18,726 nucleotides of DNA from an uncultured Pseudomonadota bacterium (GTDB taxonomy: Bacteria > Myxococcota_A > Polyangia > HGW-17), in NCBI GenBank assembly GCA_938004375.1, contig CALKWH010000305.1, forward strand, positions 1-18,726, given 5' to 3'. Below are positions 1-16,133 of the stretch, in pieces. Within the stretch, counting starts at the first letter, position 1. Each line of letters starts with the position of its first letter. Both the position numbers and the translations under genes were made by a program. The notes beneath the pieces are model-generated. The model saw only the letters and a list, made by a program, of their open reading frames with translations, was not told the origin of the DNA and ran no database searches.

Positions 1-1065
1 CGCGCTCCAGGTCACCACGCGGATGTTTTGGCCGCTGGACTCGAAGCGGGCGGTGAGCCGCGCGGCCACGGCGTCGGCCACGTCCATGTCGCGCAGGCGC
101 ATCTCGATGCCGAAAACGGTCTCGCCGGAGTCGGCGAGCTTGGGGTTGAACGAGTACGAGATGTCCAGGTGGACGTAGGCGAGCTTCTGGTCGTATTCCT
201 CGAAGCCGGCGAAGAAGATGCCGACGACGCACATGTCCAGGTTCTGCACGGCGGGGGCCACCTGGCTGGTGTCCATCGCCATGCCGAACGACGACATGGG
301 CGACAGCAGCGTCACGGAGTCCCCGACCCGCACGCCCATGCGGCGGGCGAGCCCGGAGCCGAGAATGATGCCCGGCCAGGCATGGTCCTGCTGCCGGCAG
401 TAGTCGTCGCCGGAGGCCGGCGCGACGGCCTTCGCGTCCTCGACGGTCTCCTCGGAGTCGTCGGTCACGACCGCGACGGCGGGGCGAAAGTCCCGGTTGC
501 GCTCCAGGGCGAAGATGTCGCCCTCGAGGAGGTGCCGGGGCAGGTCGAGCACGCGGGAGGCCAGTGAAGGGGAGATCCCCTTGACCAGCACGCCGCTGTG
601 CCGGCCGCCTCGCACGACGAGCATCTCGTTGAGGTTGAAGGGAGCCGCCTCGATCACGTCCGCGTCTTCCCGGGCGATCCCCAGGGTCTTCTCGGGATCC
701 GGGAACGTGGCCCCCTGGGGCATCAGTAGGATGTGACCGTTGACGCCCAATATCTTCTCCTTGAATTCCCGCTGGAACCCGGAGGAGACGGACCAGACCA
801 GCGTGAGGACGGTGGTGCCCAAAAGCACGCTGGAGATGGAGATGGTGGTGAACACCGAGAAGAACCGGAGCAGAGCGAAGACGCTGGTGCCCAGCAGGCC
901 GACCCCGAATAGGATGGCGCCGATGAACTGATACCAGCTCGGCCCGGTGAAGAACAGCGCGATGTTCAGGATCGCGAAGAGGAGAAAGGCGAAGAAGAGC
1001 GCGGCGAAGAGCCGGCTGCGCCTGGGGTTGTAGAGATACCGCCAGCTGGTGAACAGTTCGAACAT
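1..1065 (-). CDS. LolC/LolE-type ABC transporter permease, 3' end cut by window edge
   Basis: This is the N-terminal 355 residues of an inner-membrane permease of the FtsX/MacB superfamily, closest to LolC/LolE, which release outer-membrane lipoproteins to the carrier LolA. The gene starts at the ATG at 1065 and is still open at position 1. The N-terminus reads MFELFTSWRYLYNPRRSR. Residues 68-107 (FFSVFTTISIS, then SGFQREFKEKILGVNGH) match the LolC/E first helix and the start of the periplasmic domain. The motif SGLARRMGVRVGDSVTL lies near residues 237-253, and a VTW motif at the cut edge is also LolC-like. Unlike short LolC proteins, about 50 extra residues (19-66) form a hydrophobic hairpin before the canonical first helix. 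It follows the signal peptidase-like gene by 6 bases and has no clear ribosome binding site, so coupled translation is likely. LolC and LolE cannot be separated on this fragment. Confidence 0.85.
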   Translation of the reverse strand, partial: MFELFTSWRYLYNPRRSRLFAALFFAFLLFAILNIALFFTGPSWYQFIGAILFGVGLLGTSVFALLRFFSVFTTISISSVLLGTTVLTLVWSVSSGFQREFKEKILGVNGHILLMPQGATFPDPEKTLGIAREDADVIEAAPFNLNEMLVVRGGRHSGVLVKGISPSLASRVLDLPRHLLEGDIFALERNRDFRPAVAVVTDDSEETVEDAKAVAPASGDDYCRQQDHAWPGIILGSGLARRMGVRVGDSVTLLSPMSSFGMAMDTSQVAPAVQNLDMCVVGIFFAGFEEYDQKLAYVHLDISYSFNPKLADSGETVFGIEMRLRDMDVADAVAARLTARFESSGQNIRVVTWSA

Positions 1066-1071
1066 GCGAGG

Positions 1072-2133
1072 TTAACCGCCCGTGAGGCCGATCCGGTGCC
1101 AGGCGACGCCGCGCGTCGGGTGGCGGGACCACAGGATGACCAGCGGCGTCCCGGCCACATCGGACGCGCGCACTCTCAGCCAGGCGCTTTGTAGCACGAA
1201 CTGACGCAGATCGCTCAATAAAAACAGTTCCCCCGGCCCCACCTGGAAGACGAGCTCCCGGTACGTCGAGGCGGGGCCATCCTCGACCGTGGCGATGGGG
1301 TACGATCTTCCGGTCGGGCCGCGCCGCTCCTCGTGGAAGGTGCAGCGCTGCGCGCGTCCGTCTGGCAGCGTCCACACGCAGAACTCGTCACGCTGCTCCG
1401 ACACGGGGGCGGCGTCGGCGCGATCGGTGCGGTAGAGAATCCGGCCCCGCTCGTCGACCTCCACCTCCACGCGCTCTCCCGGCAGACCGGCGACCCGCAT
1501 GACGCGGGGGCCGTCCCCGGTCAGGAGACCGACGAGCGCCCCGTGACCGGGCGACCCTCCGTACGCCCAGGGGAGCCAGGCTCCCCGGCGCACTCCCAGC
1601 ACCACGTCCCCGGGCTGGGTGAACGAGGTGTCGGCATGTCCCGGCAGCTCGTAGACGAAGAAGGCCTGGCAGAACCACAGCGCGGGCAGCACCTGCAGGG
1701 CGGCGAAAACCGGGATCACCCGGACCACGGGGCGCAGCGGCCGCGTCCGTCCGGCGAGCCAGGCGTCGGCCACGCAGGCGAGCTTCGCCACGGCGCCGAA
1801 CCAGAAGACCGGACCCAGCAGGGACGGGGCCGCCCCCAGGAGCGCCAGCGGCAGCATCACGAGGAACGGGCCGGCCAGGAGCCCGGCGAACAGCGCGACG
1901 AACAGCAGGTCCACGCTGTGGATCCACACGGCGGCGACGAGGAACCCGGCCGCGAGCCCCGCCCAGCCGACCCCCCGGGCGCGCTGGCCGGCCGCGTACT
2001 GCCCCAGACCGGAGAACAGCAGGGACCAGCCCGCGGCGATCCAGGCGCTGCGGGAGGAACCGTATCGATGAATGAGGTCGGCCGCGTGCGTGGCCAGGCG
2101 GAGATCCATCCGCCAGCGGGGGGGGGCCTTCAT
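1072..2133 (-). CDS. Signal peptidase I-like membrane protein lacking catalytic Ser and Lys
   Basis: This 353-residue protein has a hydrophobic N-terminal half (helices roughly at 31-45, 53-72, 76-100, 104-121 and 138-160) with a GLGQYAAGQ motif. Its C-terminal half follows the signal peptidase I (S26) fold: PGDVVLG at 174-180, RVMRVAGLPGERV at 210-222, and SDLRQFVLQSAWLRV near 307-321 followed by ASDVAGTPLVILWS. These match boxes C, D and E. By alignment the nucleophilic serine is replaced by Ala167 (ADTSFTQPGD against SMxPTxxPGD). The general-base lysine of KRxxGxPGD is replaced by Met212, and box E has lost its GDNRxNS core. It is therefore probably not a protease and may be a structural or binding homologue. 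The start overlaps a run of nine C bases on the coding strand. A second in-frame ATG lies at 2109. The gene begins 4 bases after the upstream stop codon. Confidence 0.75.
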   Translation of the reverse strand: MKAPPRWRMDLRLATHAADLIHRYGSSRSAWIAAGWSLLFSGLGQYAAGQRARGVGWAGLAAGFLVAAVWIHSVDLLFVALFAGLLAGPFLVMLPLALLGAAPSLLGPVFWFGAVAKLACVADAWLAGRTRPLRPVVRVIPVFAALQVLPALWFCQAFFVYELPGHADTSFTQPGDVVLGVRRGAWLPWAYGGSPGHGALVGLLTGDGPRVMRVAGLPGERVEVEVDERGRILYRTDRADAAPVSEQRDEFCVWTLPDGRAQRCTFHEERRGPTGRSYPIATVEDGPASTYRELVFQVGPGELFLLSDLRQFVLQSAWLRVRASDVAGTPLVILWSRHPTRGVAWHRIGLTGG

Positions 2134-2137
2134 GGAA

Positions 2138-2794
2138 TCAGTCCAGGTGGAACTCGACCTTGAGCAGGGCCTCTCCCTTGGGGGTGACGTGGTATTCCTT
2201 GGCGCCCTTGCGGCTCTCGGCGCGGTCGCGCACCTTGATCATGCCCGTGTCCATGCCCTTCTGCTGGATCACCTTGCGCACGTTCTGCGGCAGAATGTGG
2301 TAACCGGTCAGGTCTCCCATCTCGGAGACCTCCTGCGGGGACATCCACTTGCGATCCGAGAGGACCATCAGGTACAGGACCTTGAGAAACTGGTTGCGGG
2401 AGAAGACCTGCGTGAGCAGCTCGTCGGGGAGCGCCTCGAGCTGGTCCTTCAGCGCGGAGCCCTCGGATCGGGTCGGCGCGGAGCGCTCCGCCCTGGCCTT
2501 CGCGGGCGCGGGGGACCTGGCATCCACCTCATCCACGGCAGGCACCTCGACGGGAACGGTCGGCGTCACCGGTGGGCAGCAGCAGGGGGCCTCCTCGGCC
2601 GGGTTCCCCAGGCTGCCGATCAGCGGCTCCAGCTTCTCCTTGATGCCGGGCACGTACTTCTCGGCCATGTCCAGAAACTCGACCGCCTTCTCGGTGAGCT
2701 TCACGGCGATTCGACATCCTGTCTCCAGCCCTTTTTCGAGCGCCTTGTCCCGGATCTCCATCCACTGATTCATGTTCGGAAAGTTCTCCATCAT
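2138..2794 (-). CDS. Hypothetical protein with C-terminal winged-helix-like domain
   Basis: I do not recognise this 218-residue protein as a named family. The N-terminal third (residues 1-62) is predicted helical and amphipathic. A low-complexity Pro/Ala linker follows, opening with three consecutive cysteines (71-73). The C-terminal part (about 112-218) looks like a winged helix: helices at 114-147, a MSPQEVSEMGDLTGYHI segment resembling a recognition region, a QNVRKVIQQKGM helix, and a wing ending YHVTPKGEALLKV, typical of MarR/PadR-like folds. A role in DNA binding or protein interaction is inferred. The ATG at 2794 has an AGGTG ribosome binding site 6 bases upstream. A second ATG directly follows it. 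A likely promoter sits in the gap upstream. The gene leads into the signal peptidase-like and LolC/E-type genes, so it may regulate them. Confidence 0.7.
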   Translation of the reverse strand: MMENFPNMNQWMEIRDKALEKGLETGCRIAVKLTEKAVEFLDMAEKYVPGIKEKLEPLIGSLGNPAEEAPCCCPPVTPTVPVEVPAVDEVDARSPAPAKARAERSAPTRSEGSALKDQLEALPDELLTQVFSRNQFLKVLYLMVLSDRKWMSPQEVSEMGDLTGYHILPQNVRKVIQQKGMDTGMIKVRDRAESRKGAKEYHVTPKGEALLKVEFHLD

Positions 2795-2820
2795 GGAAAC
2801 ACCTGCCCTTCGTGTAAGTC

Positions 2821-2855
2821 AGCCCAGACTAAACACATTTGCCGCACGGCGTCAA
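2821..2855 (-). promoter_or_regulatory. Candidate sigma-70 promoter for the winged-helix/SPase-like/LolC genes
   Basis: On the minus strand TTGACG (2850-2855) is followed by a 16-base spacer and TTTAGT (2828-2833), with transcription expected near 2821, 27 bases before the ATG at 2794. A second TTGACG copy lies just upstream at 2857-2862, giving a 7-base direct repeat. The -10 box matches only four of six positions, so this is a moderate prediction. Confidence 0.4.
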
Positions 2856-2858
2856 CCG

Positions 2859-3608
2859 TCAACGGGACACGGAGAATTCACAGGACACCACGGCCTTCAC
2901 CGTCTTCTCGATGGTCGAGGTGTCGTAGGAGCCGGAGTCCGAGACCTCGGTGGAGGCGGGCGCGGTGATCTGGAAGATGCCCTGAGAGACGGAGACCAGG
3001 GCGCCGACGCCCGTGCCGGTGTTCTCGGCCAGGGAACGGGCCCGCTCGAGGGCGTTGTGCATGGCGCGGCCCAGCAGATCCAGTTTCATTTTTTCAAGTC
3101 CGCTGAAGGTGTAGCGGGCCGGGTGGGCGCGGAACTCCAGCCCGTGCTTGATCAACTCGGGGGACTGACGCGCGATCTGATCGACCTTGCTGACCTCGCG
3201 GGACTGGAGCTCGACCGACTGGCGCAGCACGAAGGCCTCGATCACCGGCGTGGGATTTCCGCGCTCATCGAGGCGGGACAGGCTCTCGAGCTGGACCGGA
3301 TGGAAGATGACCTTCGTCTCGGGCGAAAAGCCGTATTGTTTGATCATGTCATGGACGAGCATGCGTCGGCTCTCGAGGGCCAGATAGCCCTCCTTGAGGT
3401 CGGCCGCGCGGACCACCCACTCCCCGCTCCAACTCGCCTGGTCGGCAATCACCTGCTGTTCGGCGGTCCCCTTGACGCGTATCACCCGCTGCTGCTTCAT
3501 TCCCAGCAGGGCGTTCCCGATGAAGACCGACGAGACGATCAGTCCCGCCGCCAGGCAGATTCCCAGCACGATCAGCCCGATTTTTCCGTCCTGCCTGGAC
3601 TCGCTCAT
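2859..3608 (-). CDS. SIMPL (DUF541) domain membrane-anchored protein
   Basis: This is a 249-residue protein with one N-terminal membrane helix (about residues 10-32, GLIVLGICLAAGLIVSSVFI) and a SIMPL domain outside the membrane. The domain opens with IRVKGTAEQQVIADQASWSG, the usual SIMPL entry pattern, and ends with VVSCEFSV. SIMPL proteins are periplasmic or envelope-associated, form oligomers in the cases studied, and mostly lack a known biochemical role. The start is set at the ATG at 3608 because AAGGAGG lies 5 bases upstream. An in-frame ATG at 3623 would place that site inside the gene and is less likely. The stop codon lies inside the promoter-like region of the next gene. It is separated from the four-paralog cluster by 244 bases, so co-transcription is uncertain. 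Confidence 0.85.
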   Translation of the reverse strand: MSESRQDGKIGLIVLGICLAAGLIVSSVFIGNALLGMKQQRVIRVKGTAEQQVIADQASWSGEWVVRAADLKEGYLALESRRMLVHDMIKQYGFSPETKVIFHPVQLESLSRLDERGNPTPVIEAFVLRQSVELQSREVSKVDQIARQSPELIKHGLEFRAHPARYTFSGLEKMKLDLLGRAMHNALERARSLAENTGTGVGALVSVSQGIFQITAPASTEVSDSGSYDTSTIEKTVKAVVSCEFSVSR

Positions 3609-3668
3609 GGAACCCTCCTTCACCGGCCGCCAGGGGCCGAAGCCGGGTGACTATACAATGAAAATCCC

Positions 3669-3690
3669 TCGAAATCGAAATCGAAATCGG
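3669..3690. repeat. (GAAATC)3 hexamer repeat, copy 1
   Basis: Three GAAATC units flanked by TC and GG stand out from the GC-rich surroundings. The same tract recurs 83 bases away at 3774-3793. Confidence 0.8.
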
Positions 3691-3773
3691 TCCAGATGGT
3701 TTTCGGAGTTGGCGCAGTTTCAAGTATCAAGTCATCGCCGACCTCGCCACCAAACCCTTAGATGGTCACGCAT

Positions 3774-3793
3774 GAAATCGAAATCGAAATCGG
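3774..3793. repeat. (GAAATC)3 hexamer repeat, copy 2
   Basis: Second copy of the tract, in the same orientation as the first and again ending in GG. With only two copies and no uniform spacers it is not a CRISPR array. Confidence 0.8.
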
Positions 3794-3852
3794 GAGACGG
3801 GCGTTCCCCGCTTCCGGGCAGGGGTCCCCGCCAATCGCCCGCATTGCCGGAC

Positions 3853-4626
3853 TCAGGGCTGAGGATCGCCGGGGGTCGTCGGACGGGGACGAGGGCGGTC
3901 ATCGGGGCGCGGGATGGGCTTCACCGGCGGGTGGGGCCGCATCTCGATGGGCGGCGGCTCCATCACCGGCTCCATCACCGGCTCCATGGGCGGCGGCGGC
4001 ATGGGCTCTTCGGGCGGCAGCGCGACGGGGGGGTGGTCGCGGACCTCCATAGGCGGCGGCGGCGGCGGATTGGGAGCGATGGGGGGCTGGTCGCGCACGT
4101 CGATGGGGGGCGGCTCCATCGGTTTGTCCGGGGGCGGCTTGTCGCAGCCGGAGACCCCCAGGAGGCCGGCCACGGCCATCCCGGCCACGGCAGCGGCCCG
4201 CGCCACGGGAGCGGCCGCGGCGATGGCGGGAGCGGCCGCGGCGACCGAGGGCGCGACGAAGTACTCCGGATCATGGGAGGCGGTCGTGAAGCCGTGGACG
4301 TGCAGGCGCAGCCGGCGGTCTCCCAGGGTGAGCTCGTCGCCGTCGAGGAGCACCACGGGTTTTTGCTCCTCCACCTCCACGAAGCGGCCGCCGCGGTGCA
4401 CACGCGCCCCCCCTGCGGCCCCCGGCTCCCGGTAGCACACCAATTTTTCATCCAGGGAGACCACCAACCGGATCGCGGCAGGCGCCCCGGAGCGCCACTC
4501 CACGATGCCGTCGGGCGTGAGCGCCAGCCCCGGCTGCAGACCGGTCAGCGCGCAGCAGCGCAGATACCGCCGATCCTCGGAGGCGGGGTGACAGTCCTCG
4601 ATGCACAGGGCGATGATGCGAGACAT
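3853..4626 (-). CDS. Paralog A4 of the radical SAM cluster: Cys motif, FHA-like domain, internal lipobox, Pro-rich tail
   Basis: This is the last and most divergent of four tandem paralogs, 257 residues long. The N-terminus carries IALCIEDCHP with Cys8, Cys12 and Cys24. Tyr is replaced by His in the CYP motif, and the following His-Glu is not conserved. Residues 25-112 form an FHA-like beta domain with GARVHRGGRFVEV and KPVVLLDGDELTLG. An Ala-rich hydrophobic segment (about 128-160) ends in LLGVSGC, a lipobox-like sequence with Cys161. The tail (162-257) is very proline-rich and holds three copies of the cluster motif: IDVRDQPP, MEVRDHPP and IEMRPHPP. A strong AGGAGG lies upstream of the ATG at 4626. 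A4 is most like A2 in its beta domain. It is probably a substrate of the radical SAM enzyme, though this is inferred only from context and shared motifs. Confidence 0.75.
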   Translation of the reverse strand: MSRIIALCIEDCHPASEDRRYLRCCALTGLQPGLALTPDGIVEWRSGAPAAIRLVVSLDEKLVCYREPGAAGGARVHRGGRFVEVEEQKPVVLLDGDELTLGDRRLRLHVHGFTTASHDPEYFVAPSVAAAAPAIAAAAPVARAAAVAGMAVAGLLGVSGCDKPPPDKPMEPPPIDVRDQPPIAPNPPPPPPMEVRDHPPVALPPEEPMPPPPMEPVMEPVMEPPPIEMRPHPPVKPIPRPDDRPRPRPTTPGDPQP

Positions 4627-4650
4627 GGAAAACTCTCCTCCTGGTGGCCG

Positions 4651-5289
4651 TCAGTTGGCCACGTCCGGCGGCTGGAACCGCGTCTCGATGGGCTCGGTCT
4701 TCTTCTCCGGCTCGGTCTCGGGCGGCTCCGGAACCGGCGCCGAGACCGGCGGGGGCGCGGCGGTGAGGACCCCGGGCTGCTCGTTCACGGGCTGCTCCCG
4801 CGGACAACCGGCGCCCGCCAGCGCAGTCACGGCGATCACGCCCGCTGCCGCGAGGCGGGCCCAGGTGTGCCGGGCGGGCTCATCGGCCGTGGCGCCGTTC
4901 TCGCCCGGCTGGAGGTAGCGCGGCTCGGCGGCCCCGGCGGCGACACCGTGCAGGTGGATCCGGTAGCAGCGACCCGGGTGGGCGAGGTAGTCGCCGTCCA
5001 CGAGGATGACCGGTCGGCCGGTCTCCAGTTCGACCCTGCGACTGGCGCGAGTGACGCGGGCCCCGGCGGGCATGCCCGGGTCGCGGATCACCCCCAGGCG
5101 CTCGTCCCCGGTCACGAAGAGGCGGCAGAACCCGGGAGCCCCGCCGTCCTCGTCGCGCCACAGGATCCGGCCGTCCGCGGCCAGCAACAGGCGGAACTCC
5201 GGGCCGGAGCCGGCCACGCAACGCAGATACCGGAGATGCTCGTGGACCGGGTAACAGTCCTCGACGCACAGCGCGATGGGGTTCGGCAT
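4651..5289 (-). CDS. Paralog A3 of the radical SAM cluster
   Basis: The protein is 212 residues long. It opens with IALCVEDCYPVHEHLRYLRC (Cys8, Cys12, Cys24), close to the family consensus. The FHA-like beta domain spans about 25-115 and includes GARVTRASRRVEL and RPVILVDGDYL, then GRCYRIHLHG. The hydrophobic stretch WARLAAAGVIAVTALAGAGC (143-162) looks like a signal-anchor with a lipobox ending at Cys162, but it is internal rather than N-terminal. The tail is Pro/Glu-rich and ends with a single IETRFQPP copy at the extreme C-terminus. After the cysteine, PVNEQP recalls SVNERP in A1. The ATG at 5289 has a GGAGG site 5 bases away that overlaps the TAG stop of A2, so A2 and A3 are probably translationally coupled. 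No function is known. Confidence 0.78.
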   Translation of the reverse strand: MPNPIALCVEDCYPVHEHLRYLRCVAGSGPEFRLLLAADGRILWRDEDGGAPGFCRLFVTGDERLGVIRDPGMPAGARVTRASRRVELETGRPVILVDGDYLAHPGRCYRIHLHGVAAGAAEPRYLQPGENGATADEPARHTWARLAAAGVIAVTALAGAGCPREQPVNEQPGVLTAAPPPVSAPVPEPPETEPEKKTEPIETRFQPPDVAN

Positions 5290-5298
5290 GGGAGCCTC

Positions 5299-6069
5299 CT
5301 ATTTCGTACCCGTGGGTGGCTTGGGCGGGGGGTTCGGCGCGATGGGCGGGGCCACCGCCGGCGGCACCGGACGCACCTCGATGGGCGCCTTCTTCATGTC
5401 CTTCCCGTCGTCGGGGACACCGGCGTCGGCCTTGGGAGGCGGTGGGGGCGGCGGGGGCGGCGGGGGCTCCGGCGCCACCTTGGGCGGCTCGTCGCGCACC
5501 TCCATGGGCGGCGGCGGCATGGACTCCTCCAGGGGCGGTTCTGGGGTCTGCTCCACCGCGGGCGGCTGGTCGCGCACCTCGATGGTCTTGGTGTCCTCGG
5601 CGGGGGGCCGGCTGCAGGCGGGCGCCGCGACCGTCCCGAGCACCAGGGCCCCGGCGGCGGCCAGGCGGGCCCACGTGGAGGACGCGGGCTCCTCGAAGTC
5701 CAGGTAGCGCGGTTCGGTGACCGCCGGGGCCTGCCCGTGCACGTGAAGCCGGTAGCAGTGACCGGACAACAGCAGGTAGTCGCCGTCGATCACGACGACC
5801 GGTTTATTCTCCTCGAGCGCCACCTCGCGTCCGGCGCGATGCACCCGCGCGCCCGCCGGGGCACCCGGGGGACGGAAACAGATCAACTTCTCGTCCGAGG
5901 AGACCCAGAGCTCGCACAGGACGGGCCCCTCCCCCTTCCACACGACCTCGCCGGCGGGCGTGATCGCCAGGCCCGGATCGACGCCGGTGATGGCGGTGCA
6001 GCGCAGGTAGCGCAGGCTCTCGTGGGGCGGATAGCAGTTCTCGATGCAGATGGCCAACGGTTTCGGCAT
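5299..6069 (-). CDS. Paralog A2 of the radical SAM cluster, polyproline tail
   Basis: The protein is 256 residues long. It starts at the ATG at 6069 with GGAGG 7 bases upstream. The reading frame is open further upstream, but that extension would overlap A1 and lacks the family N-terminus. Residues 5-24 read LAICIENCYPPHESLRYLRC with the three invariant cysteines (8, 12, 24). The FHA-like domain (25-112) has GARVHRAGREVAL, KPVVVIDGDYLLL and CYRLHVHG. The internal hydrophobic segment WARLAAAGALVLGTVAAPAC (133-152) ends in Cys152. The tail has three motif copies (IEVRDQPP, MEVRDEPP, IEVRPVPP) and a run of eleven prolines (202-212). Its beta domain pairs with A4, including SSDEKLICFRPPGAP against SLDEKLVCYREPGAA. 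It lies 41 bases after A1. Confidence 0.78.
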   Translation of the reverse strand: MPKPLAICIENCYPPHESLRYLRCTAITGVDPGLAITPAGEVVWKGEGPVLCELWVSSDEKLICFRPPGAPAGARVHRAGREVALEENKPVVVIDGDYLLLSGHCYRLHVHGQAPAVTEPRYLDFEEPASSTWARLAAAGALVLGTVAAPACSRPPAEDTKTIEVRDQPPAVEQTPEPPLEESMPPPPMEVRDEPPKVAPEPPPPPPPPPPPKADAGVPDDGKDMKKAPIEVRPVPPAVAPPIAPNPPPKPPTGTK

Positions 6070-6110
6070 GGTCAATCCTCCACGGGGCCCATCCCGGCCC
6101 CGGACGTCAC

Positions 6111-6725
6111 TTAAGGATAATTCGGATCCGGCGCGATCACGGGCGGCTCGTCCCGGACGTCGATCGGATCGACCTTGGTCTTGGGCTCCTTGCCCTCGGG
6201 CGGCTCCGGGCGCGGGGGTACGGGCTCGTCCCGTTGCACGTCCGGCCGCTCGTTCACGCTGCTCTCCTTCGGCGCACAGCCGATGCCTCCTGCGAACCCG
6301 GTCACCGCGATGAGCCCGGCGGCGGCGAACCGCGCCAGGGTGGAGGCGGCCGGCTCCTGCTCGTGCAGGAACGTCGGGACCGCGTGGCGCCGCGCCTCGC
6401 CGTGCACATGAATCTGGTAGCACCGGCCCGGCACCGCCAGGAAGTCCCCGTCGCACAGGATCACCGGCTTGCCCGGCGCGAGGTCCACGAACCGGCCGCC
6501 GCGATGCACCCGCCCCCCCGGCAGGCTGCCGGCGGTGGCCAGGCACGCCAGGCGGCCGTCCCCGGTCACCCGCAGCTCGCAGCACGACCCGGGCCCGGCG
6601 TCGACGACGCCCCCGGGTCCCACGTGGAGGCCGAGCTCCTGCACGACCGTGCACTGCAGATGGCGCAGCCCCTCATGGGCCGGATAGCAGTCCTCGAGAC
6701 AGATGGCGATGATCATCCCCGACAT
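6111..6725 (-). CDS. Paralog A1, first substrate-like gene after the radical SAM gene
   Basis: The protein is 204 residues long. The ATG at 6725 follows a perfect AGGAGG by 5 bases. That site overlaps the TAG stop of the radical SAM gene, and the two genes are only 9 bases apart. This is strong evidence for one transcript and coupled translation. The N-terminus has IAICLEDCYPAHEGLRHLQC (Cys9, Cys13, Cys25). The beta domain includes GGRVHRGGRFVDL, KPVILCDGDFLAV and GRCYQIHVHG. It carries more cysteines than its siblings (48, 49, 61, 91, 102). The hydrophobic segment (130-150) ends in FAGGIGC with Cys150. The tail is charged and Pro-rich and ends with one IDVRDEPP copy followed by VIAPDPNYP. 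It could be a modified substrate or a partner protein. Neither is proven. Confidence 0.78.
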   Translation of the reverse strand: MSGMIIAICLEDCYPAHEGLRHLQCTVVQELGLHVGPGGVVDAGPGSCCELRVTGDGRLACLATAGSLPGGRVHRGGRFVDLAPGKPVILCDGDFLAVPGRCYQIHVHGEARRHAVPTFLHEQEPAASTLARFAAAGLIAVTGFAGGIGCAPKESSVNERPDVQRDEPVPPRPEPPEGKEPKTKVDPIDVRDEPPVIAPDPNYP

Positions 6726-6734
6726 GAAAACCTC

Positions 6735-8075
6735 CTACAGATCGACGCAGTGGCGGGAGATCCCGCGCGGTTTCACCTCGGCCGGCGCCTCGATGCCCCG
6801 CCGGTGTGCCTCGGCCAGCAGGTGGTGGATCGGCCAGTCCAGCGCCGAGGTCCAGTCGTCGGCCAGAAGCTCGCTGATCACGCGCACCCGCCAGGTGTCG
6901 CACAGCGGGGTGTCGCCGTCGGTGGTGTAAAGATAGTTGTCCGAGCGGCAGCCGGCGCCGCAGAGCGTGGCCAGCGCGCAATCCCGGCACAGGGGCAGCC
7001 CGGCGGCCGGGTGCGGGTGGGAGCGCACGTGTCGCAGGGCGGCCTCGAAGCCCTCCTGGCGCAGGTGCCCGACCTTCTCCTCCATCTTGAAGCACGGAAA
7101 CAGCGAACCGTCCGAGCGCAGGTGCAGGTGGTGACCCAGGGCGCAGCCGCAGCCCTCGCGGCGGAACGCCAGCGGACTGGCCGTGACGGCGTGGATGGTC
7201 TCCCCGGCCTCGAAGGCGATGCGGTCGAGGGCGCGCTCGAGCTCGTAGCGGGAGGGGAACACGTGCTCGCCAGATTCCCTACCAGACAAGTAGGCAATCC
7301 CCAGGGCGACGCGGATCCCGGAAGGCAGGCGCCGCCGCAGCTCATGGAACTGCCCGGCCACCGTGTCCACGTGCTGGGGGAACAGCATGAGATCGATGAC
7401 GGCCTCTCCGCCGGCTGCGTACAGGTTGCCGATGGCGGTGAGCGCGGTCTCGAAGCGGGTCGTGCCCGAGAAGGCGTCGCAGGTCTCCTCGGTGGGACCC
7501 GCCAGGCTGATGCGCACCTGGGCGCCCCGCTTCACGAGCGAGGCCACCCGCCCGGCCAGCTCCGGGTCGGCCATGGGCATGCCGTTGGTGAAGATCGTGA
7601 GATCCAGATCCCGGTCCAGGATGCGCGAGGCGGCGTCCACCGCCCACGGCACGAGCAGGGGCTCGCCACCCAGGATGGCCACGCGGCCGCGGGGACCCAG
7701 CAGCGCGGGGATCCGGTCGATCACGCCGCACACCTCCTCGTACGTCATCTCGTCTTGGCGGGCCGTGCCGGAGTTGGTGCAGCAGTAGGAGCACAGCAGG
7801 TTGCAGGCGTTGGTGATCTGGAGCTGGACCGACGGGGGATCCGCCTTCTCGGGGCGCGGCGCGTCGAAGAAGCCGTGCCGTCGCAGCTCGGAGACCAGCT
7901 CCGAGGAGAGGTGGTCCGCGGGCGCGCGTCCCGCGAGGACCTCCTCCAGGGCGGGCACGGCCGGGGCCGGCACGCGGCAGAAGACGGCGTGCTCCCGGGA
8001 GACCAGGAGCCGTCCCTCGAACAGGGGCAGAAGGACGCTGTCCGGAGGGAGCTTGAGGGGTTCGGGCTGCTGCAT
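6735..8075 (-). CDS. Radical SAM/SPASM maturase
   Basis: This 446-residue enzyme belongs to the radical SAM superfamily. The [4Fe-4S] cluster motif CNLLCSYC lies at 91-98 (Cys91, Cys95, Cys98), followed by the SAM-binding GGEP at 136-139. The C-terminus is a SPASM domain for auxiliary iron-sulfur clusters. It holds CGCALG (309-314), Cys328 after SDGSLFPC, CRDC (363-366), Cys372, Cys376 and Cys392. This layout is typical of peptide and protein maturases that install crosslinks or oxidations in ribosomal substrates. The first 75 residues (LLPLFEGRLLVSREHAVF and on) resemble the N-terminal domain of HxsB-type maturases and may recognise substrate. The start at 8075 has GGAG 6 bases upstream. Four paralogous genes follow directly and are the likely substrates. 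The exact subfamily and reaction are unknown. Confidence 0.9.
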   Translation of the reverse strand: MQQPEPLKLPPDSVLLPLFEGRLLVSREHAVFCRVPAPAVPALEEVLAGRAPADHLSSELVSELRRHGFFDAPRPEKADPPSVQLQITNACNLLCSYCCTNSGTARQDEMTYEEVCGVIDRIPALLGPRGRVAILGGEPLLVPWAVDAASRILDRDLDLTIFTNGMPMADPELAGRVASLVKRGAQVRISLAGPTEETCDAFSGTTRFETALTAIGNLYAAGGEAVIDLMLFPQHVDTVAGQFHELRRRLPSGIRVALGIAYLSGRESGEHVFPSRYELERALDRIAFEAGETIHAVTASPLAFRREGCGCALGHHLHLRSDGSLFPCFKMEEKVGHLRQEGFEAALRHVRSHPHPAAGLPLCRDCALATLCGAGCRSDNYLYTTDGDTPLCDTWRVRVISELLADDWTSALDWPIHHLLAEAHRRGIEAPAEVKPRGISRHCVDL

Positions 8076-8100
8076 CGGGATCTCCTTCGGTTGCGGTCGG

Positions 8101-8113
8101 GCACCGGGGGTGC
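8101..8113. repeat. Short inverted repeat in the radical SAM leader
   Basis: GCACC-GGG-GGTGC forms a 5-bp stem with a 3-base loop, between the -10 box and the ribosome binding site. It lacks a T run and is unlikely to be a terminator. It could be a weak leader hairpin. Confidence 0.35.
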
Positions 8114-8121
8114 AGGCGAAC

Positions 8122-8127
8122 ATTATA
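8122..8127 (-). promoter_or_regulatory. -10 box upstream of the radical SAM operon
   Basis: A perfect TATAAT on the minus strand lies 47 bases before the ATG at 8075, in the gap after the DUF6178-like gene. No good -35 hexamer is found 16-18 bases upstream. The promoter may therefore depend on an activator or an alternative sigma factor, or the match may be chance. Its rarity in GC-rich DNA and its position make a promoter likely. Confidence 0.5.
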
Positions 8128-8152
8128 GGGGAATGTGGTCGACTTGGGGAGC

Positions 8153-9796
8153 TTATTTTTTCTGGCGCGGCGGTCGGCGGGAGAGCAGCAGGACCGCCTC
8201 GGGATCGGTGGCGCCGGCCAGGGGAGCCAGGTGGGTGTCCACGATCCGGGCCAGGCGGGCGGGCGTGAGCGCCACGCGGGGGGCGAGGAGCCCGGCGAGG
8301 GCCTTTCGGGCGCGGGGCACGTTCTCCGGGTCGGCCAGGAAGGCGCGCGCGGCGACCGCCGTCAGCGGCACCGCCGAGGCCTTCCCCTTCACCACCAGCG
8401 CCACGGCGGCCGAGCGCAACAGGTCCCCGAAGGTGATCGCGCCCGGGGCGTGCCGGGAGGTGCGCGCTGCGCCCTCGTCCGTGAGCAGGCCAGCCGGCAG
8501 GCCGAGCACCTCGAAGCACAGGCCCTTGAACACGCTCATCTCCTCGAGGAGCTCGGTGATCAGGGCGAGCTGGTCCAGGGTCGAGGGGGGCGCCGGCCGA
8601 TGGCCTCCCTCCGGGGTCCAGTCCAGATGGGGATGGGGGGCCAGCAGCGCGGCCAGGAAGGCGGACCAGGGCCCCTCGAGCAGGGTGGCGGTCCCCGGGG
8701 AGAGGGACACCACCCCCGTGCGCATCAGGGTGGCGGCCAAAAGCGCCCCCTGTCGCTGCAGATGGTAGCCGCACTGGAACAGACGCGACACGTGCAACGC
8801 GCGCAGGACGTCCTCGGGGGTCCGGGCGCGATGACGCACGAAGTAGGCCAGTCCCAGGTTCACGCCGGCCCTGGCCCGCTCCAGCACGTCGGCCAGCCCC
8901 GCCTCGTCGGCGACGTCGACCCCGTCGGCGGCCGTCATGCGATTGCAAAGCAGGGCGAGGTTGCCCCGGACGGCGTCCTGCTCTTCGACGATGAGCCGCG
9001 CCAGGCCTTCGGAGAGCAGGTCGCCCTCCCGGCGGGACGCGGCGACCGGCAGGTAGCAGGCGACGGCGGGCCGCTCCAGGGGCGTCCCCGCCTTCTCGAG
9101 GGAGACGCGGGCCGGGTCGACCGGGGTGTAGATCTCCCGGGCCGTGTGGGCGTCCCAGAAGCCCTCGTCCCGGATCCGACCGTTGCGCAGGCGATAACTC
9201 TCCTCCTCGAGGGCGCAGGGCAGCTCCATGGTCGTGGCCAGCAACAGCCGCTGGATCCCGGTGGCGTCGAACTCGTACCACCGGTCGATGAAGCGCAGGA
9301 GGTTGTTCCAGGCCTCCTCGGGGGTGTCCGGCAGGGGTTGGAGCTCGAAGTATTCGTCCGGGGTCGTGTACCAGGCGGAGTTCTCGGGGCGCTCCGGCTC
9401 GAGCTTGAGGTTGAAGATCGTCATCCGCGAGAGCAGGTGCAGCCCGAAGCCGTCGGGGAGCAGGCCGTGGATCTTCTCGTTCCAGGCCTCGTCCGGGAGC
9501 TCGAGCATCCGGGCGATCCACTCGTCGGCGCCCGCGGGGTCGAAGCCGTCGCCGCGCCAGGTGTCCATGTCCCAGCAGCACTGGAGCTGCTCCACCGCGG
9601 CGTGCAACACCAGCAGCCGACGGTCCTCGTGATCGGCCACCCGCGACAGGTGATAGACGGCCGAGGGTGGAAGCTCGGGGACCACCCGCGAGGGATCCCC
9701 CAGCGCCCAGAGGGCGTCCAGGTTCCGCCCCGACAGGGAGACCTCCACCGCCCGCTGCAGTTTATTCTGGTTGTCTCTTTCCTGCAGGTGATCCAT
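8153..9796 (-). CDS. DUF6178-like protein
   Basis: This 547-residue protein is soluble and acidic-to-neutral, with no signal peptide and no clear membrane helix. It resembles, from memory, the DUF6178 family of deltaproteobacterial lineages, which has no established function. Recognisable features are the early LPPSAVYHLSRVADHEDRR, the tryptophan-rich CCWDMDTWRGDGFDP near 75-90, and an Ala/Leu-rich helical C-terminal half. The start is placed at the ATG at 9796, because GGAGG lies 6 bases upstream. A TTG at 9799 is also possible but sits only 3 bases from that site. It overlaps the end of the small membrane protein gene by 35 bases, so the two are probably co-expressed. The family assignment is moderate. 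That this is a real gene is clear. Confidence 0.75.
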   Translation of the reverse strand: MDHLQERDNQNKLQRAVEVSLSGRNLDALWALGDPSRVVPELPPSAVYHLSRVADHEDRRLLVLHAAVEQLQCCWDMDTWRGDGFDPAGADEWIARMLELPDEAWNEKIHGLLPDGFGLHLLSRMTIFNLKLEPERPENSAWYTTPDEYFELQPLPDTPEEAWNNLLRFIDRWYEFDATGIQRLLLATTMELPCALEEESYRLRNGRIRDEGFWDAHTAREIYTPVDPARVSLEKAGTPLERPAVACYLPVAASRREGDLLSEGLARLIVEEQDAVRGNLALLCNRMTAADGVDVADEAGLADVLERARAGVNLGLAYFVRHRARTPEDVLRALHVSRLFQCGYHLQRQGALLAATLMRTGVVSLSPGTATLLEGPWSAFLAALLAPHPHLDWTPEGGHRPAPPSTLDQLALITELLEEMSVFKGLCFEVLGLPAGLLTDEGAARTSRHAPGAITFGDLLRSAAVALVVKGKASAVPLTAVAARAFLADPENVPRARKALAGLLAPRVALTPARLARIVDTHLAPLAGATDPEAVLLLSRRPPRQKK

Positions 9797-10142
9797 CAAC
9801 GTCCTCCCCGCCCGCGCCGGCCGGCGGCGCCTCCTCGGTCAGGACCTTCGTCAGGCCGTCGAGCGAGGACTGGCAACCCCTGGAATACACCATGAAGACG
9901 GCCACGACCAGGGCCATCAGGATGAGCACCTGATCGGCCATCATGGAGCGGTCCGCGGCACGATAGGTCAGACGGACCCGGTGACGGCGCGGCTCGGGCT
10001 CCGGCGTGGGCCCCTCATCCACGGCGGGCACGTCCTTCCCTGCGCCCGCGTCCTCGATGGAGGGTTCCTCTCCCCGGCGGACCTCGGGGTCACCCGGATC
10101 CCGGGGCCGCGGCGCTTCACCGTTGCCCCTATCGCCGCTCAT
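9762..10142 (-). CDS. Small single-helix membrane protein
   Basis: I do not recognise this 126-residue protein. Residues 1-65 are polar and rich in Pro, Glu, Asp and Arg. A single hydrophobic helix follows (about 69-87, DQVLILMALVVAVFMVY), preceded by arginines, then a short tail with Cys90. The charge pattern favours a cytoplasmic N-terminus and an outside C-terminus. Its ATG overlaps the stop codon of recJ as ATGA (10139-10142), and its 3' end overlaps the DUF6178-like gene. Both junctions indicate an operon and support the gene being real despite its low complexity. Confidence 0.65.
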   Translation of the reverse strand: MSGDRGNGEAPRPRDPGDPEVRRGEEPSIEDAGAGKDVPAVDEGPTPEPEPRRHRVRLTYRAADRSMMADQVLILMALVVAVFMVYSRGCQSSLDGLTKVLTEEAPPAGAGGEDVDGSPAGKRQPE

Positions 10143-11878
10143 GCGTCCTTTTCCCCGGCGTTCCAGAGAAAGAGGATCCGCATCTGCAGACCCTCGGGGT
10201 TGTACGAGTTGCGCTCGGGCACGTAAATCACGTTGACGAGGGGGCCGATGTCGCGCTGGGACTTCGCCATGTTGAACCCGATGGCCTGACGGACCGCCTG
10301 GGTCACGGGATCCCGCAGGCGCACAGAGACGTGCGCGTTCTTGGGATACCGCACCGAGACCACCTCGAGCTCCCGGCTCAGGAGCACGGGCTCGGGGTTC
10401 TGGTTCCCGAAGGGGGCCAGCAGCTTCAGTTCCTCGAGGAAGCGCGCGTTCAGTTCATGCAGGGGGACCAACGCGTCCACTGGAGTGGGGAGCGCGCTCC
10501 CGTCGCCGGCGAAGCCGCGCAGTTGGTCGTCGAAGGCGCGGGCGAAGTCGCCGAGCTGCTCCCGGGCCAGTTCGATCCCCATCGCACCCTGGTGGCCGCC
10601 GAAGGAGATCAGGTGTTCTGCGGTGCGCGAGATGACCTCGAAGATGTTGATCGCGCCGAAGGTGCGCACCGAGCCGCGACCGATGTCGCCGCGCAGGGCG
10701 ATGGCGATGGCCGGCCGCTTGTACTGTTCGGCGAGCTTGGCTGCGACGATACCGACGATCCCCGGGTGCCAATCGGTCCCCGAGACCACGATCCCCCAGC
10801 GGTAGTCCATCGAGGCCTCGGCCTGCACGACGGCTTCCTTGAACATCTGCTCCTGGATCTGCTGACGCCGCTCGTTGATGCGGGTGAGCTCACCCGCGAT
10901 CTGCAGGGCCTGCTGGTAGTCCGGCGCCGTGAGCAGCTGGAGGCTGAGCTCGGCGTCCCCCATGCGGCCGGGGGCGTTGAGCTTGGGCGTCATGCGGAAC
11001 ACGACGTGCTTCTCGGTGAGCTCCTCGGCCGGATCGATGTGGGCAGCCACACACAGCGCCCGCAGGGAAGGCCGCTTGCGTGCGGCGATCAGGCGCAGGC
11101 CGTGGTGCACCAGGATGCGGTTGTTCCCCGTGAGGGGAGAGACGTCGGCCAGCGTGCCCAGCGCGACGATGTCGAGGAAGTCCTTGAGCTCGGGGAGATC
11201 CGCCGGCGGGACGCGGCAGTCCGCCTCGAGCCGGGAACGCAGCCCGGCCATGAGATAGAACGAGAGTCCCACCGAGGCCATCCCGGGGAAGGGGAAGGCG
11301 CAGTCCGCGCGCAGGGGATTGATCAAGGCGCGGGCCTTCGGATAGGGCGCCTGCAGGTGGTGATGGTCGACGATGACCAGCTCGAGGCCGCGGGCGTTGG
11401 CCGCGTCCACCGCCTCGTGGTCGGTGGAGCCGACGTCGCAGGCGATGACCGTGCGCACGCCGGAGGCCGCGAAAAACTCGACGTCCTCTATGGTGAGGCC
11501 GTAGCCGCGGTCGCGGTGGGCCAGCCGGGTGACCGCCTGGATGCGGATCGCGCGGAAAAACAGCACCCACAGGGACACCGACGAGATCCCGTCGGAATCG
11601 TAGTCCCCGAACACACCGATCGCCTCGCCGGCCGTGACGCAGCCCGCGAGGTGGGAGACGGCCTTCTCGTAATCAGCGAGCGCCTCGGGCCGCTCGAGCC
11701 GGGCCAGCCGCGGATGGAGGAAGGCCTCGAGCTCGGGACCCGACGCGAAGCCGCGCACCGCCAGGATGCGGGCCGTCAGGGACGACAGATTGAACTTGTT
11801 CTCGATCTCGAAGGCCGCTTCGCCGGAGTGGGCGGGGATGATCGGCTGGGGTGGAAGCGGTGTGGTCGGACGGTTCAC
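10139..11878 (-). CDS. recJ: Single-stranded-DNA-specific exonuclease RecJ
   Basis: RecJ degrades single-stranded DNA 5' to 3' in recombination and mismatch or base-excision repair, using metal ions bound by DHH-family motifs. This 579-residue protein is of normal RecJ length. It shows DYDSDG (92-97), the DVGSTDHEAV segment (148-157), the DHH motif in VDHHH (170-174), VALGTLADVSPLTG (238-251), and NAPGRMGDAE (301-310). The DHHA1 region has HPGIVGIVAAKLAE (371-384) and FGGHQGAMG (426-434). The C-terminal part forms the OB-fold. The start is a GTG at 11878 with a weak ribosome binding site, so the exact N-terminus is less sure. Location just after secDF is common in deltaproteobacterial relatives, and the gap to secF is 69 bases with no clear terminator. 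Confidence 0.93.
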   Translation of the reverse strand: MNRPTTPLPPQPIIPAHSGEAAFEIENKFNLSSLTARILAVRGFASGPELEAFLHPRLARLERPEALADYEKAVSHLAGCVTAGEAIGVFGDYDSDGISSVSLWVLFFRAIRIQAVTRLAHRDRGYGLTIEDVEFFAASGVRTVIACDVGSTDHEAVDAANARGLELVIVDHHHLQAPYPKARALINPLRADCAFPFPGMASVGLSFYLMAGLRSRLEADCRVPPADLPELKDFLDIVALGTLADVSPLTGNNRILVHHGLRLIAARKRPSLRALCVAAHIDPAEELTEKHVVFRMTPKLNAPGRMGDAELSLQLLTAPDYQQALQIAGELTRINERRQQIQEQMFKEAVVQAEASMDYRWGIVVSGTDWHPGIVGIVAAKLAEQYKRPAIAIALRGDIGRGSVRTFGAINIFEVISRTAEHLISFGGHQGAMGIELAREQLGDFARAFDDQLRGFAGDGSALPTPVDALVPLHELNARFLEELKLLAPFGNQNPEPVLLSRELEVVSVRYPKNAHVSVRLRDPVTQAVRQAIGFNMAKSQRDIGPLVNVIYVPERNSYNPEGLQMRILFLWNAGEKDA

Positions 11879-11947
11879 GGGCTCACGCGACGGAAAAGAC
11901 TCGGTTCGGGGTCACCAACACTCACACGAAAAACGCGGGCGTCGGGG

Positions 11948-13402
11948 CTACCCCTTCCGTTTTCCGCCACGACCGCCGCGGCCCTTGCGGCGCAGCTTCT
12001 TGGCTTTCTTGACCTCGCGCTCCTTGAGCTCTTCCTCGCTGAGCTCCTCCTCGGGCCGCTCGTCATCGTCCTCGGAGCCTTCGGCCTCGCCGTCCCCGTC
12101 CTCGGAGTCTTCGGACTCGTCCTCGTCCATGGGCTCGGTCTCCTGGCGGTTGTCGGCGACGAAGTACCGGCCGAAGGCGGAGTCGATGAAGAGCACCATC
12201 GGGGAGGCGACGAAGATCGAGGAGTACGTGCCGATGATGATGCCGATGCCCATGGCCAGCGCGAAGTCACGCAGAACGCCGTCGGCGACCACAAAGATGG
12301 CCGCGACCGTGAAGAACGTGGTGGCCGAGGTCAGGATCGTGCGGGACAGGGTCTCGTTGATGGAGGTGTTGACCACCTTGGGCAGGCTGTGGGACCGCAA
12401 CTTCAGGATGTTCTCACGGATGCGGTCGTAGACGACGATGGTGTCGTTGAGCGAATAACCGACGATGGTGAGCAGCGCGGCTAGGATCGGCAGCGAGAAC
12501 TCGCGCCAGAACAGGGCGAAGATGCCCACCGTGATCAGGACGTCGTGCACCAGGGCGACGATGGCGCCCGGGGCGAACTTGAGGTCGAACCGCAGGACGA
12601 TGTAGAGCAGGATGAAGCCCAGGGCATAGAGCAGGGACAGGATGCCCTGGATGCGCAGGCGCTTGCCGACCTGGGGACCGCGGCTCTCGACGCTGAGAAC
12701 CGAGGCCTTGGCGCCCAACTGCTTGGTCAGGCCGTCCTCGATCTTCTCGGAGACGGACTCGAGCAGGATGGTGTACTCGTTGCGCTTGGGGCTCACGGTG
12801 AGGCCCTCGGCGTAGTCGAGCTCGGCCGGGTGGGGCTTCTCCCACTTGGGGGTCTCGCCCTTGCCCACGCGGGTCAGGTAGTCCAGCGCCTCGGGGGTGA
12901 GCTCGGCCTTGGGCACGCGGGCCTTGAGGTTGAGGGCGGCGAACAGCGGCTCGAACTCGTCGAGCTTGGTCGGGGCGTGGAAGCGGACCTTGATGTGGTC
13001 TCCGGCGGCGGAGAAGCGGATGCGGAACAGGTCGCTCTTGTACTTGCCGACGAAGGACTTTTCGATGGCGGCGCGCTGGTCGTCGGTGATCGACGAGAAC
13101 GAGCGCATGGCCACGAGGTAGCCGGTCTTGCCCACGCTGGAGACGGAGGCGTCCTTGTAGCCGATCTTCTCCAGCGCAGCGCGAAGGTCGGCGGGGGCCA
13201 CCTTCTTGTCGAACTCGAGCTGGATCTGGGTGCCCCCCAGGAAGTCGAGACCGTAGTTGAGCATCGTGCCGCGGCCGGGGATGAACACGTTGGCGACCAG
13301 GATCAGGATGCTGAGACCGACGAGCACGCCACTGAAGGCGAACGCCTTCCTGCGGTTACTCATGAATTGATAGTTGGTTCCGGGCTTGATGATCTCGAAC
13401 AT
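11948..13402 (-). CDS. secF: Protein translocase subunit SecF, extended
   Basis: SecF pairs with SecD in the inner membrane and uses the proton gradient to help pull proteins through SecYEG. The protein has an N-terminal helix (about 21-41) and the LNYGLDFLGGTQIQLEF motif (48-64). Five helices follow from about residue 251, including the conserved GYSLNDTIVVYDRIREN (315-331). At 484 residues it is far longer than E. coli SecF (about 320). The region between the first two helices is about 210 residues rather than about 110. A cytoplasmic tail (418-484) is first strongly acidic, then Lys/Arg/Gly-rich, ending KRKG. The ATG at 13402 has GGAG 6 bases upstream that overlaps the TAG stop of secD, so translation is likely coupled. 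Confidence 0.95.
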   Translation of the reverse strand: MFEIIKPGTNYQFMSNRRKAFAFSGVLVGLSILILVANVFIPGRGTMLNYGLDFLGGTQIQLEFDKKVAPADLRAALEKIGYKDASVSSVGKTGYLVAMRSFSSITDDQRAAIEKSFVGKYKSDLFRIRFSAAGDHIKVRFHAPTKLDEFEPLFAALNLKARVPKAELTPEALDYLTRVGKGETPKWEKPHPAELDYAEGLTVSPKRNEYTILLESVSEKIEDGLTKQLGAKASVLSVESRGPQVGKRLRIQGILSLLYALGFILLYIVLRFDLKFAPGAIVALVHDVLITVGIFALFWREFSLPILAALLTIVGYSLNDTIVVYDRIRENILKLRSHSLPKVVNTSINETLSRTILTSATTFFTVAAIFVVADGVLRDFALAMGIGIIIGTYSSIFVASPMVLFIDSAFGRYFVADNRQETEPMDEDESEDSEDGDGEAEGSEDDDERPEEELSEEELKEREVKKAKKLRRKGRGGRGGKRKG

Positions 13403-13411
13403 GGCCGACTC

Positions 13412-15301
<1,890 letters not shown>

Positions 15302-15321
15302 AATTGAACTCCCCTATTCAC

Positions 15322-15939
15322 CTAGGAATCGGATTCCTTGGATTCCTTGTCGTTGCCTTTCTTGCCCTCGGCTTCGCCGGAGAGCGCCGCCTGCTTGCCC
15401 TGCACGTGGGAGCGCAGCACCTTGATGGTCGTCTTGTTGCCGACCTCGAGGGTAACGATCTGATCCGTGAGGGAGACGATGGTCCCGAGCATGCCGCCGG
15501 AGGTAATCACCCGATCGCCCTTGGTCAATGCGTTGAGCATCACCTGCATCTCTTTCTGGCGTTTCTGCTGGGGGCGAATCAAGAAAAGGTAGAACACCAC
15601 GAACATCACGCCCAGCAGCACGAGCGAAAACATCTGGTTTCCGCCGCCGCAGCCGCCCTGGGGTTGCTGCTGGGGCGAAGGGGGCGCCATGGTGGCCGTC
15701 AACCCGTCGCCCACGGGGGTCGACTGGGCCAGGGGAGCGCCGGCCGTCGCGGGAGCGCCGGGCGTCGCGGGAGCGCCGGCCGTCGCGGGAGCGCCGGGCG
15801 TCGCGGGAGCGCCGGCCGTCGCGGGAGCGCCGGCCGTCGCGGGGGCTCCGGCAGTCGCGGGGACCGCGGGGGCTTCGATCGCCATCGAGGCGCTCACCGG
15901 CTGCCCCTCGGGGGTTTGAAATGCACAGGCTACACTCAC
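15322..15939 (-). CDS. yajC: Preprotein translocase subunit YajC with repetitive N-terminus
   Basis: YajC is a small inner-membrane protein that associates with SecDF. Here the core is normal: one helix (103-121), then YLFLIRPQQKRQKE and LTKGDRVITSGGMLGTIVSL (138-157). The core is preceded by about 100 unusual residues. These include six GAPATA/GAPATP hexapeptides (31-66) and a Gln/Pro/Gly stretch with Cys97. The tail is charged and hydrophilic. The protein is 205 residues, about twice the usual length. The start is a GTG at 15939, supported by GGAGGT 5 bases upstream. An in-frame start nearer the helix (Met84) would give a normal-sized YajC, but no comparable ribosome binding site was noted there. 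It heads the secDF-recJ operon. Confidence 0.9.
   Translation of the reverse strand: MSVACAFQTPEGQPVSASMAIEAPAVPATAGAPATAGAPATAGAPATPGAPATAGAPATPGAPATAGAPLAQSTPVGDGLTATMAPPSPQQQPQGGCGGGNQMFSLVLLGVMFVVFYLFLIRPQQKRQKEMQVMLNALTKGDRVITSGGMLGTIVSLTDQIVTLEVGNKTTIKVLRSHVQGKQAALSGEAEGKKGNDKESKESDS
15742..15849. repeat. Six tandem 18-bp repeats inside yajC
   Basis: On the plus strand the unit reads roughly GGAGCGCCGGCCGTCGCG, with GGGCGTC as a variant. It encodes the GAPATA/GAPATP hexapeptide in the YajC N-terminus. The near identity of units suggests recent expansion by slippage or unequal recombination. Confidence 0.9.
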
Positions 15940-16006
15940 TTGGGACCTCCAGAATCAACGAAAAAAGCCTTCCGCGACCGGGCATGCCGGGCGGACAGGT
16001 CAGAGA

Positions 16007-16035: not shown

Positions 16036-16133
16036 CCTCGATTCTCGGGCCTTTGTGGAAATGAAATAATTACACACCGCATTCAACTTCCTCGAACCCG
16101 TATCCCGCCCTCAACTTTTCCTGAATATAGTTG

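Follow-up and report, generated by a model that had tools for sequence, protein, structure and literature searches.

We analysed a window of 18,726 nucleotides (contig CALKWH010000305.1, positions 1 to 18,726 of the forward strand, assembly GCA_938004375.1) from an uncultured bacterium of the lineage Myxococcota_A, Polyangia, HGW-17. In it a gene for a radical S-adenosylmethionine (SAM) enzyme of the SPASM type, hereafter the maturase (6735-8075, minus strand, 446 amino acids), is followed on the same strand by four genes of one family, A1 (6111-6725), A2 (5299-6069), A3 (4651-5289) and A4 (3853-4626). The original prediction, drawn from the DNA letters and their open reading frames (ORFs), had described an intact maturase leading a tight cluster of four paralogous genes with strong ribosome-binding sites, and both halves of that description were confirmed. 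The A genes are paralogues of one another, closely spaced and provided with good ribosome-binding sites. The enzyme matches Pfam Radical_SAM at 2.4e-16, and an alignment of 48 rows, in which 47 homologues are 54-94% identical to it, showed as invariant both the cysteines of the CX3CX2C cluster motif (C91, C95 and C98; residues 91-98, 7782-7805), present together with the radical SAM core fold, and eight C-terminal cysteines (C309, C311, C328, C363, C366, C372, C376 and C392; residues 309-392, 6900-7151). The latter supply the cysteine pattern for two auxiliary clusters by which SPASM domains are recognized, with a Pfam SPASM score just under the cut-off (19.1 vs 21.5 bits).

In structure comparisons the fold of the maturase lies near those of the peptide maturases SkfB, CteB, SuiB, TigE and PqqE, and its nearest sequence and fold matches in the PDB include the thioether-forming SkfB and CteB; enzymes with small-molecule substrates score alike to peptide maturases in this comparison. 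Among the best 25 of 70 matched NCBIfam families the enzyme stays far under the cut-offs (best 65.8 bits vs 265) and belongs to none of the curated radical SAM families found there (mycofactocin, sactipeptide StsB, HxsC, PapB, SCIFF and others), the weak similarity to HxsC amounting to 39.7 bits against a cut-off of 267.9. PADLOC matches to viperin look like generic radical SAM similarity, and that identity was set aside. Residues 1-80 gave no Pfam match. In the structural model, about residues 10-70 (7866-8048) form three strands (13-17, 22-26 and 31-35) and two helices (37-47 and 58-66), an order consistent with a recognition element (RRE) of the kind found in systems for ribosomally synthesized and post-translationally modified peptides (RiPPs); alignments with CteB begin at model residues 10-11 and with TigE at residue 3, those with SkfB and SuiB only at 76-80. 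The protein searches for homologues of the maturase and of the A proteins scored about 8000 candidates. They gave 305 maturase homologues at E≤1e-20, and the sources named among the 120 listed include Planctomycetota and Chloroflexi, which suggests a wider range for the maturase family.

The A proteins, mostly of about 190-370 amino acids, share a layout in which an FHA-like domain is followed by a hydrophobic segment and then by a proline-rich tail. The folded FHA-like domain that had been proposed from the sequence reappeared in an AlphaFold2 model of A2, where residues 3-116 (5722-6063) adopt an FHA-like beta-sandwich fold. The Pfam FHA model matched neither A1-A4 (E up to 1) nor any of 60 aligned family members (E up to 0.05). 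The view that the family is an unrecognised one also held: A1-A4 stay below all Pfam and NCBIfam cut-offs, with no more than weak matches of A4 to TagH (0.0015) and GltG (0.002), of A2 to DUF2064 (0.15) and of A3 to LppK (0.068), and a profile search against the sequences of solved structures returned a single chance-level match (E 3.5). Within the domain all 60 aligned rows share C8, E10, C24, H109 and H111; the strands that bear this Cys/Glu/His set are expected to adjoin in a sandwich of the FHA type, and the set may bind a metal. A conserved N-terminal domain joined to a motif-bearing tail corresponds to the leader region plus core of a RiPP precursor. Some members extend further. TonB_C, a periplasmic domain, is matched in 2 of the 60 members scanned with Pfam, and 14 members (P0052, P0058, P0059, P0060, P0063, P0067, P0070, P0071, P0073 and P0077-P0081) possess one more domain at the C-terminus, about 120 amino acids long, that starts near G-[EAP]-W-[TV], beyond the motif region, and for which the scan of the 60 members, six carriers among them, gave at most marginal Pfam matches (e.g. 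DUF7161 in three members, best 0.0028). Such variants suggest that the mature tails may serve as linkers or anchors for envelope functions.

The tails carry a short repeated motif. The pattern [ED][VILMT]RxxPP occurs 170 times in the tails of 95 A-family members, the window's own A1, A2 and A4 included, against 0.77 copies expected from shuffled tails, a control that ignores shared descent. At least one copy is present in 83 of the 95, the number per member ranges from 0 to 5, and the tail between the copies varies widely. When each position was scored without itself, the consensus was [IV]-[ED]-V-R-x-x-P-P, with I/V in 158 of 175 instances, E/D in 177/185, V in 156/176, R in 171/177 and the two prolines in 177/181 and 177/178, the two x positions being variable. 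In the window, A1 has one copy (IDVRDEPP, 6141-6164), A2 three (5560-5583, 5482-5505 and 5359-5382), A3 one (IETRFQPP, 4666-4689) and A4 three (4081-4104, 4027-4050 and 3925-3948), and all eight copies found there fall within these genes. A six-frame scan of 374,223 bases (the window plus loci L001-L027) found 78 copies in A frames and one outside them, VEVRTEPP at L017:304-327, which may be chance. We consider the repeated motif the likely target of modification by the maturase. Since [IV][ED]VRxxPP contains neither cysteine nor an aromatic residue, thioether and cyclophane chemistry inside the motif seems unlikely; most compatible with its composition would be a modification of the aliphatic Ile/Val or of the Arg, with no cysteine or aromatic partner within the motif.

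The hydrophobic segment had been described as an internal membrane segment. Its presence was confirmed, in A2 at 5614-5667 with its end at Cys152, and its reading has to be revised, because a single position takes two alternative signal-peptidase-type endings: in 84 of the 94 members long enough to be examined the segment ends with a cysteine in lipobox-like position, under a permissive rule that restricts only the residue before the cysteine, and in 8 of 94, judged by eye, an AxA-like ending stands at the same place, neither being present in the remaining 2. A cleavable internal signal is thus more likely than a permanent anchor. Not one motif copy precedes the end of the segment in the 94 members, the first motif follows the cysteine by 1 to 52 residues, and the 12 residues before the segment hold 190 Lys plus Arg against 89 Asp plus Glu. 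The order of hydrophobic segment and lipobox cysteine is that of bacterial lipoproteins; the segment departs from their N-terminal signals in lying C-terminal to the FHA-like domain, beyond about residue 115. The periplasmic TonB_C domain matched in two of the 60 scanned members also fits a tail that is exported. Exported A proteins would probably be lipid-anchored.

The two families occur together in the genomes sampled, where at most 4-20 candidates were scored per genome. A sample of 192 genomes from the same class showed A proteins in 18, the maturase in 18 and both in 17 (Fisher 3.6e-22, relatedness ignored). The single genome with A proteins only, G005, gave in a profile search generic radical SAM proteins only (best 6.6e-18). 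In the single genome with the maturase only, G014, residues 6-144 are directly joined to residues 394-446, so that the gene is a remnant; this copy lies on contig 324 (L079, L081 and L084), lacks the middle of the enzyme and comes with no A gene that could be found, a possible case of decay of the pair. Ten of the 17 genomes with both families belonged to 13 that had first been found through A, and the seven others (G020, G061, G064, G065, G067, G083 and G089) all carry both. An earlier sample of 144 genomes, overlapping the 192, had the two families in 17 and 18 genomes. In a sample of the Riflebacteria phylum A matches appeared in 2 of 39 genomes, one of which (G207, a marginal 6.8e-4) was treated as chance. 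The condition under which the proposed pairing would have failed, A homologues widespread in genomes lacking the enzyme, is thus confined here to 1 of 18 A-bearing genomes.

That the candidate substrates lie next to the maturase, as first supposed, is true of the window and only partly so of its relatives. A scan of genome contigs with one peptide pattern, based on a diverse alignment of A proteins, located 27 A loci in 13 genomes, and a family maturase was visible in the surrounding DNA of nine of them, several contigs being short. Searches of these genomes in full recovered the enzyme from 12; G003, G004, G006 and G007 have it incomplete or split in two, each such case being read as one gene. 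The same searches gave 57 A matches, of which two partial ones in G001 and G002 were dropped as tails of proteins already counted; five of the remaining 55 lie in G005, which has no family maturase. In the 12 maturase-bearing relatives 22 of 50 A genes stand on the maturase contig and 28 on other contigs, a figure somewhat inflated by contig breaks. Nine of the 50 come from G003, G004 and G007, where an incomplete or split maturase makes adjacency hard to judge, and short matches, such as one of 49 residues in G012, are counted as well. In G001, G002, G009, G010 and G012 A genes adjoin the maturase, yet 19 further A matches occur on other contigs. One maturase therefore seems to serve several A genes, many of them encoded elsewhere in the genome, a dispersal measured in relatives reached through the loci rather than in the window's own species. 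Beside the maturase of the close relative G009 a fifth, weaker-scoring A gene (L021:2456-3235) precedes the A1 equivalent, where the window has four.

A divergent parallel set, here called clade II, repeats the pairing. The maturase query found 10 of 377 genomes of the phylum, and matches to an A2 profile occurred in exactly four of these. In the other six the maturases are 37-41% identical to that of the window, the copy of G314 being a partial match with a stop. Beside five of the divergent maturases lie genes whose products combine an FHA-like domain with a hydrophobic segment that ends in cysteine and with tails of low complexity or of Cys-rich repeats. A profile of these proteins aligned with the A family over 80 columns (hhalign probability 94.6), making them remote homologues of the FHA-like domain, and in a search of the 377 genomes it found exactly those six, so that maturase type and A type agree in 10 of 10 (4 vs 6). 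The profile was built from four of the six and G370 had been read before, leaving G314 alone unseen; the absence of clade II proteins from the other 371 genomes carries more weight in this test. A lipobox-like cysteine is found in 7 of 8 clade II proteins, one protein (L091, 2750-3298) having neither cysteine nor a typical tail. The tails lack VRxxPP, contain no copy of the strict clade I pattern, and repeat short glycine motifs instead (HPMGDV, RLSGKK, VDIHEMGDV, VDVREGEM). An approximate pattern, [RHQ]-x-[MLTSAG]-G, picked after reading the tails, occurs 17 times against 2.5 expected. Of eight patterns tried, those for clade II having been chosen in that way, five exceeded all 300 shuffles and two, [DE][VIM][RHQVSE]xx[PG] and [VIA]x4-5G[DKEGA], did not. 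VDVRE-G and IEVRD-xPP look alike, which is no more than suggestive. A different type of maturase goes along with a different motif, as would be expected if the motif were the substrate. The clade II protein L101 (G314, contig 83) has a row of Cys-rich repeats, some 45-50 residues long, and a short glycine motif stands after each.

These observations probably reflect the maturation of exported proteins in a RiPP-like manner. We infer that the FHA-like domain of the A proteins is a folded leader, recognized in the cytosol by the maturase, probably by way of the RRE-like domain at the enzyme's N-terminus, and that the enzyme modifies the [IV]-[ED]-V-R-x-x-P-P copies in the tail. The hydrophobic segment would then act as an internal signal, the tail crossing the inner membrane to be cleaved, and lipidated, at the lipobox-like cysteine or, in a minority, cut at an AxA-like signal-peptidase I site, with the FHA-like domain left behind. 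A single maturase would act on several A proteins. The original prediction of a putative protein-modification system, possibly for surface-exposed proteins, thus came through the computational checks it had named, a profile search of the A proteins and the co-occurrence of their homologues with this maturase clade; the tail motif, the internal export signal and the service of one maturase to several A genes are additions to it. A bolder proposal, which we put forward tentatively and with rather less confidence, is that an FHA-like domain has been domesticated into a folded leader, portable between proteins, with whose help a single radical SAM maturase decorates the [IV][ED]VRxxPP sites of an exported lipoprotein family genome-wide with new chemistry, and that maturase clades and motif types diverged together.

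The main rival places the modification in the FHA-like domain itself, as a crosslink or some different alteration of the near-invariant Cys24 or Cys8, and leaves the tail motif as a conserved binding or spacer element. The invariance of C8, E10, C24, H109 and H111 speaks for it, as does the kinship of the enzyme with the thioether-forming SkfB and CteB. An equivalent of C24 can be read in the alignment of 7 of 8 clade II proteins, and hhalign aligns the same region with C24, but C8 and the histidines of HVHG are not kept there. Modification of the domain would moreover leave unexplained why the motif is present one to five times per tail, is nearly exclusive to A genes and gives way to another motif where the maturase is the divergent one, and we regard such a modification as unlikely. 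The A proteins might instead be stable inner-membrane proteins, with a cytosolic FHA-like domain, an uncleaved anchor and a periplasmic proline-rich tail in a TonB- or TagH-like layout, the tail being modified with no removal of a leader. Here the weak likeness of A4 to TagH and GltG, far below cut-off, the TonB_C matches and the single hydrophobic segment are in accord, but in 92 of 94 members the segment closes, at one and the same position, with either a lipobox-like cysteine or an AxA-like sequence, which argues for cleavage, so that a permanent membrane location, too, appears improbable.

Further cutting of the tail would yield a classical secreted RiPP, small modified peptides released as a signal, antibiotic or metallophore. 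The repeated motif does recall multi-core precursors such as TvgA with its TVGG repeats, as far as the accessible part of PMC9062424 describes them, and a few A members end their segment in AxA rather than cysteine; the cysteine of most members and the C-terminal domain that follows the motifs in some make this outcome quite improbable. We find it very hard to believe that the maturase and the A genes are merely neighbours with no functional link. Both do belong to a conserved SecDF/RecJ neighbourhood in close relatives, but their co-occurrence in the 192- and 377-genome samples, which extends to A genes on other contigs, contradicts it.

As to that neighbourhood, the order of window positions 1072-15939 is kept in the close relative L020 (YajC, SecD, SecF, RecJ, a small ORF, DUF6178, the maturase, the A genes, a SIMPL protein and two further genes), and L021 and L023 keep such parts of it as their contigs contain. 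Distant relatives do not, and no neighbour gene of the window recurs beside the maturase in them, transporters and proteases not having been systematically looked for there. DUF6178, SIMPL and the S26-like neighbour, which accompany the maturase only in L020, L021 and L023, were accordingly set aside as parts of the system; the last, at 1072-2133, is a membrane protein with weak signal-peptidase-I-like similarity (NCBIfam E 0.0092, Pfam 0.092) that lies by the cluster in L020 and L021. In two genomes (L010, about 8746-9840, and L014, minus strand) a SPASM protein nearest to "nif11-class maturase 3" is encoded convergently to an A gene; it was rejected as a second maturase, being a different SPASM protein nearest TIGR04103 (303 bits, cut-off 725).

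The proposed system has relatives in logic rather than in detail. SPASM maturases with an RRE, such as SkfB, CteB, SuiB and TigE, are known to act on short peptides encoded beside the enzyme, the RRE of PqqE being the separate protein PqqD, whereas the A proteins are larger, have an export signal in their interior as well as a folded domain, and are in many cases encoded elsewhere. The His-Xaa-Ser system HxsA/B/C of Haft and Basu reportedly also pairs a repeated short motif with a radical SAM maturase, with two maturases and another motif. TIGR04133, "rSAM_w_lipo", denotes by its name only a radical SAM/SPASM protein linked with a lipoprotein; it matched the different SPASM gene in L010 below cut-off (153 vs 425 bits) and is not among the 25 best families of the window enzyme. 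Proteusin leaders are nitrile-hydratase-like, not FHA-like, and are not known to be combined with an internal lipobox-type signal. A long structured leader ahead of the modified core is found in proteusins, as far as they are described in the accessible part of PMC10858898, and is proposed for the A proteins. Another analogy is TvgB, a radical SAM enzyme that forms cyclopropylglycine on the TVGG-repeat precursor TvgA and so indicates that such an enzyme is able to modify repeated Val motifs (PMC9062424, accessible part). TvgA, like most A proteins, bears a short motif that includes Val, and a single radical SAM enzyme acts on its several copies, as is proposed for the A tails; but TVGG differs from [IV][ED]VRxxPP, and TvgA and TvgB belong to a five-gene cluster with an oxidase and peptidase/transporters, no FHA-like domain being mentioned in that part of the source (PMC9062424). 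Neither Pfam nor NCBIfam gave a family that matches the proposed system, and the open-access literature, including the accessible parts of PMC9062424 and PMC8939145, yielded no description of an A/maturase system. Fold and logic, those of peptide modification by radical SAM/SPASM enzymes, are familiar; the substrate architecture, the dispersal and the motif are not.

Radical SAM maturases are known mostly from the making of small peptide products. If the proposed system is real, such enzymes would also decorate proteins of the cell envelope, guided by a folded FHA-derived tag present on many proteins, and would offer a testable substrate motif for a chemistry that uses neither cysteine nor aromatic residues. 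The FHA-like domain would then be a natural tag for directing radical SAM enzymes to proteins, and the pairing would open a way into a family of Myxococcota proteins that lacks annotation.

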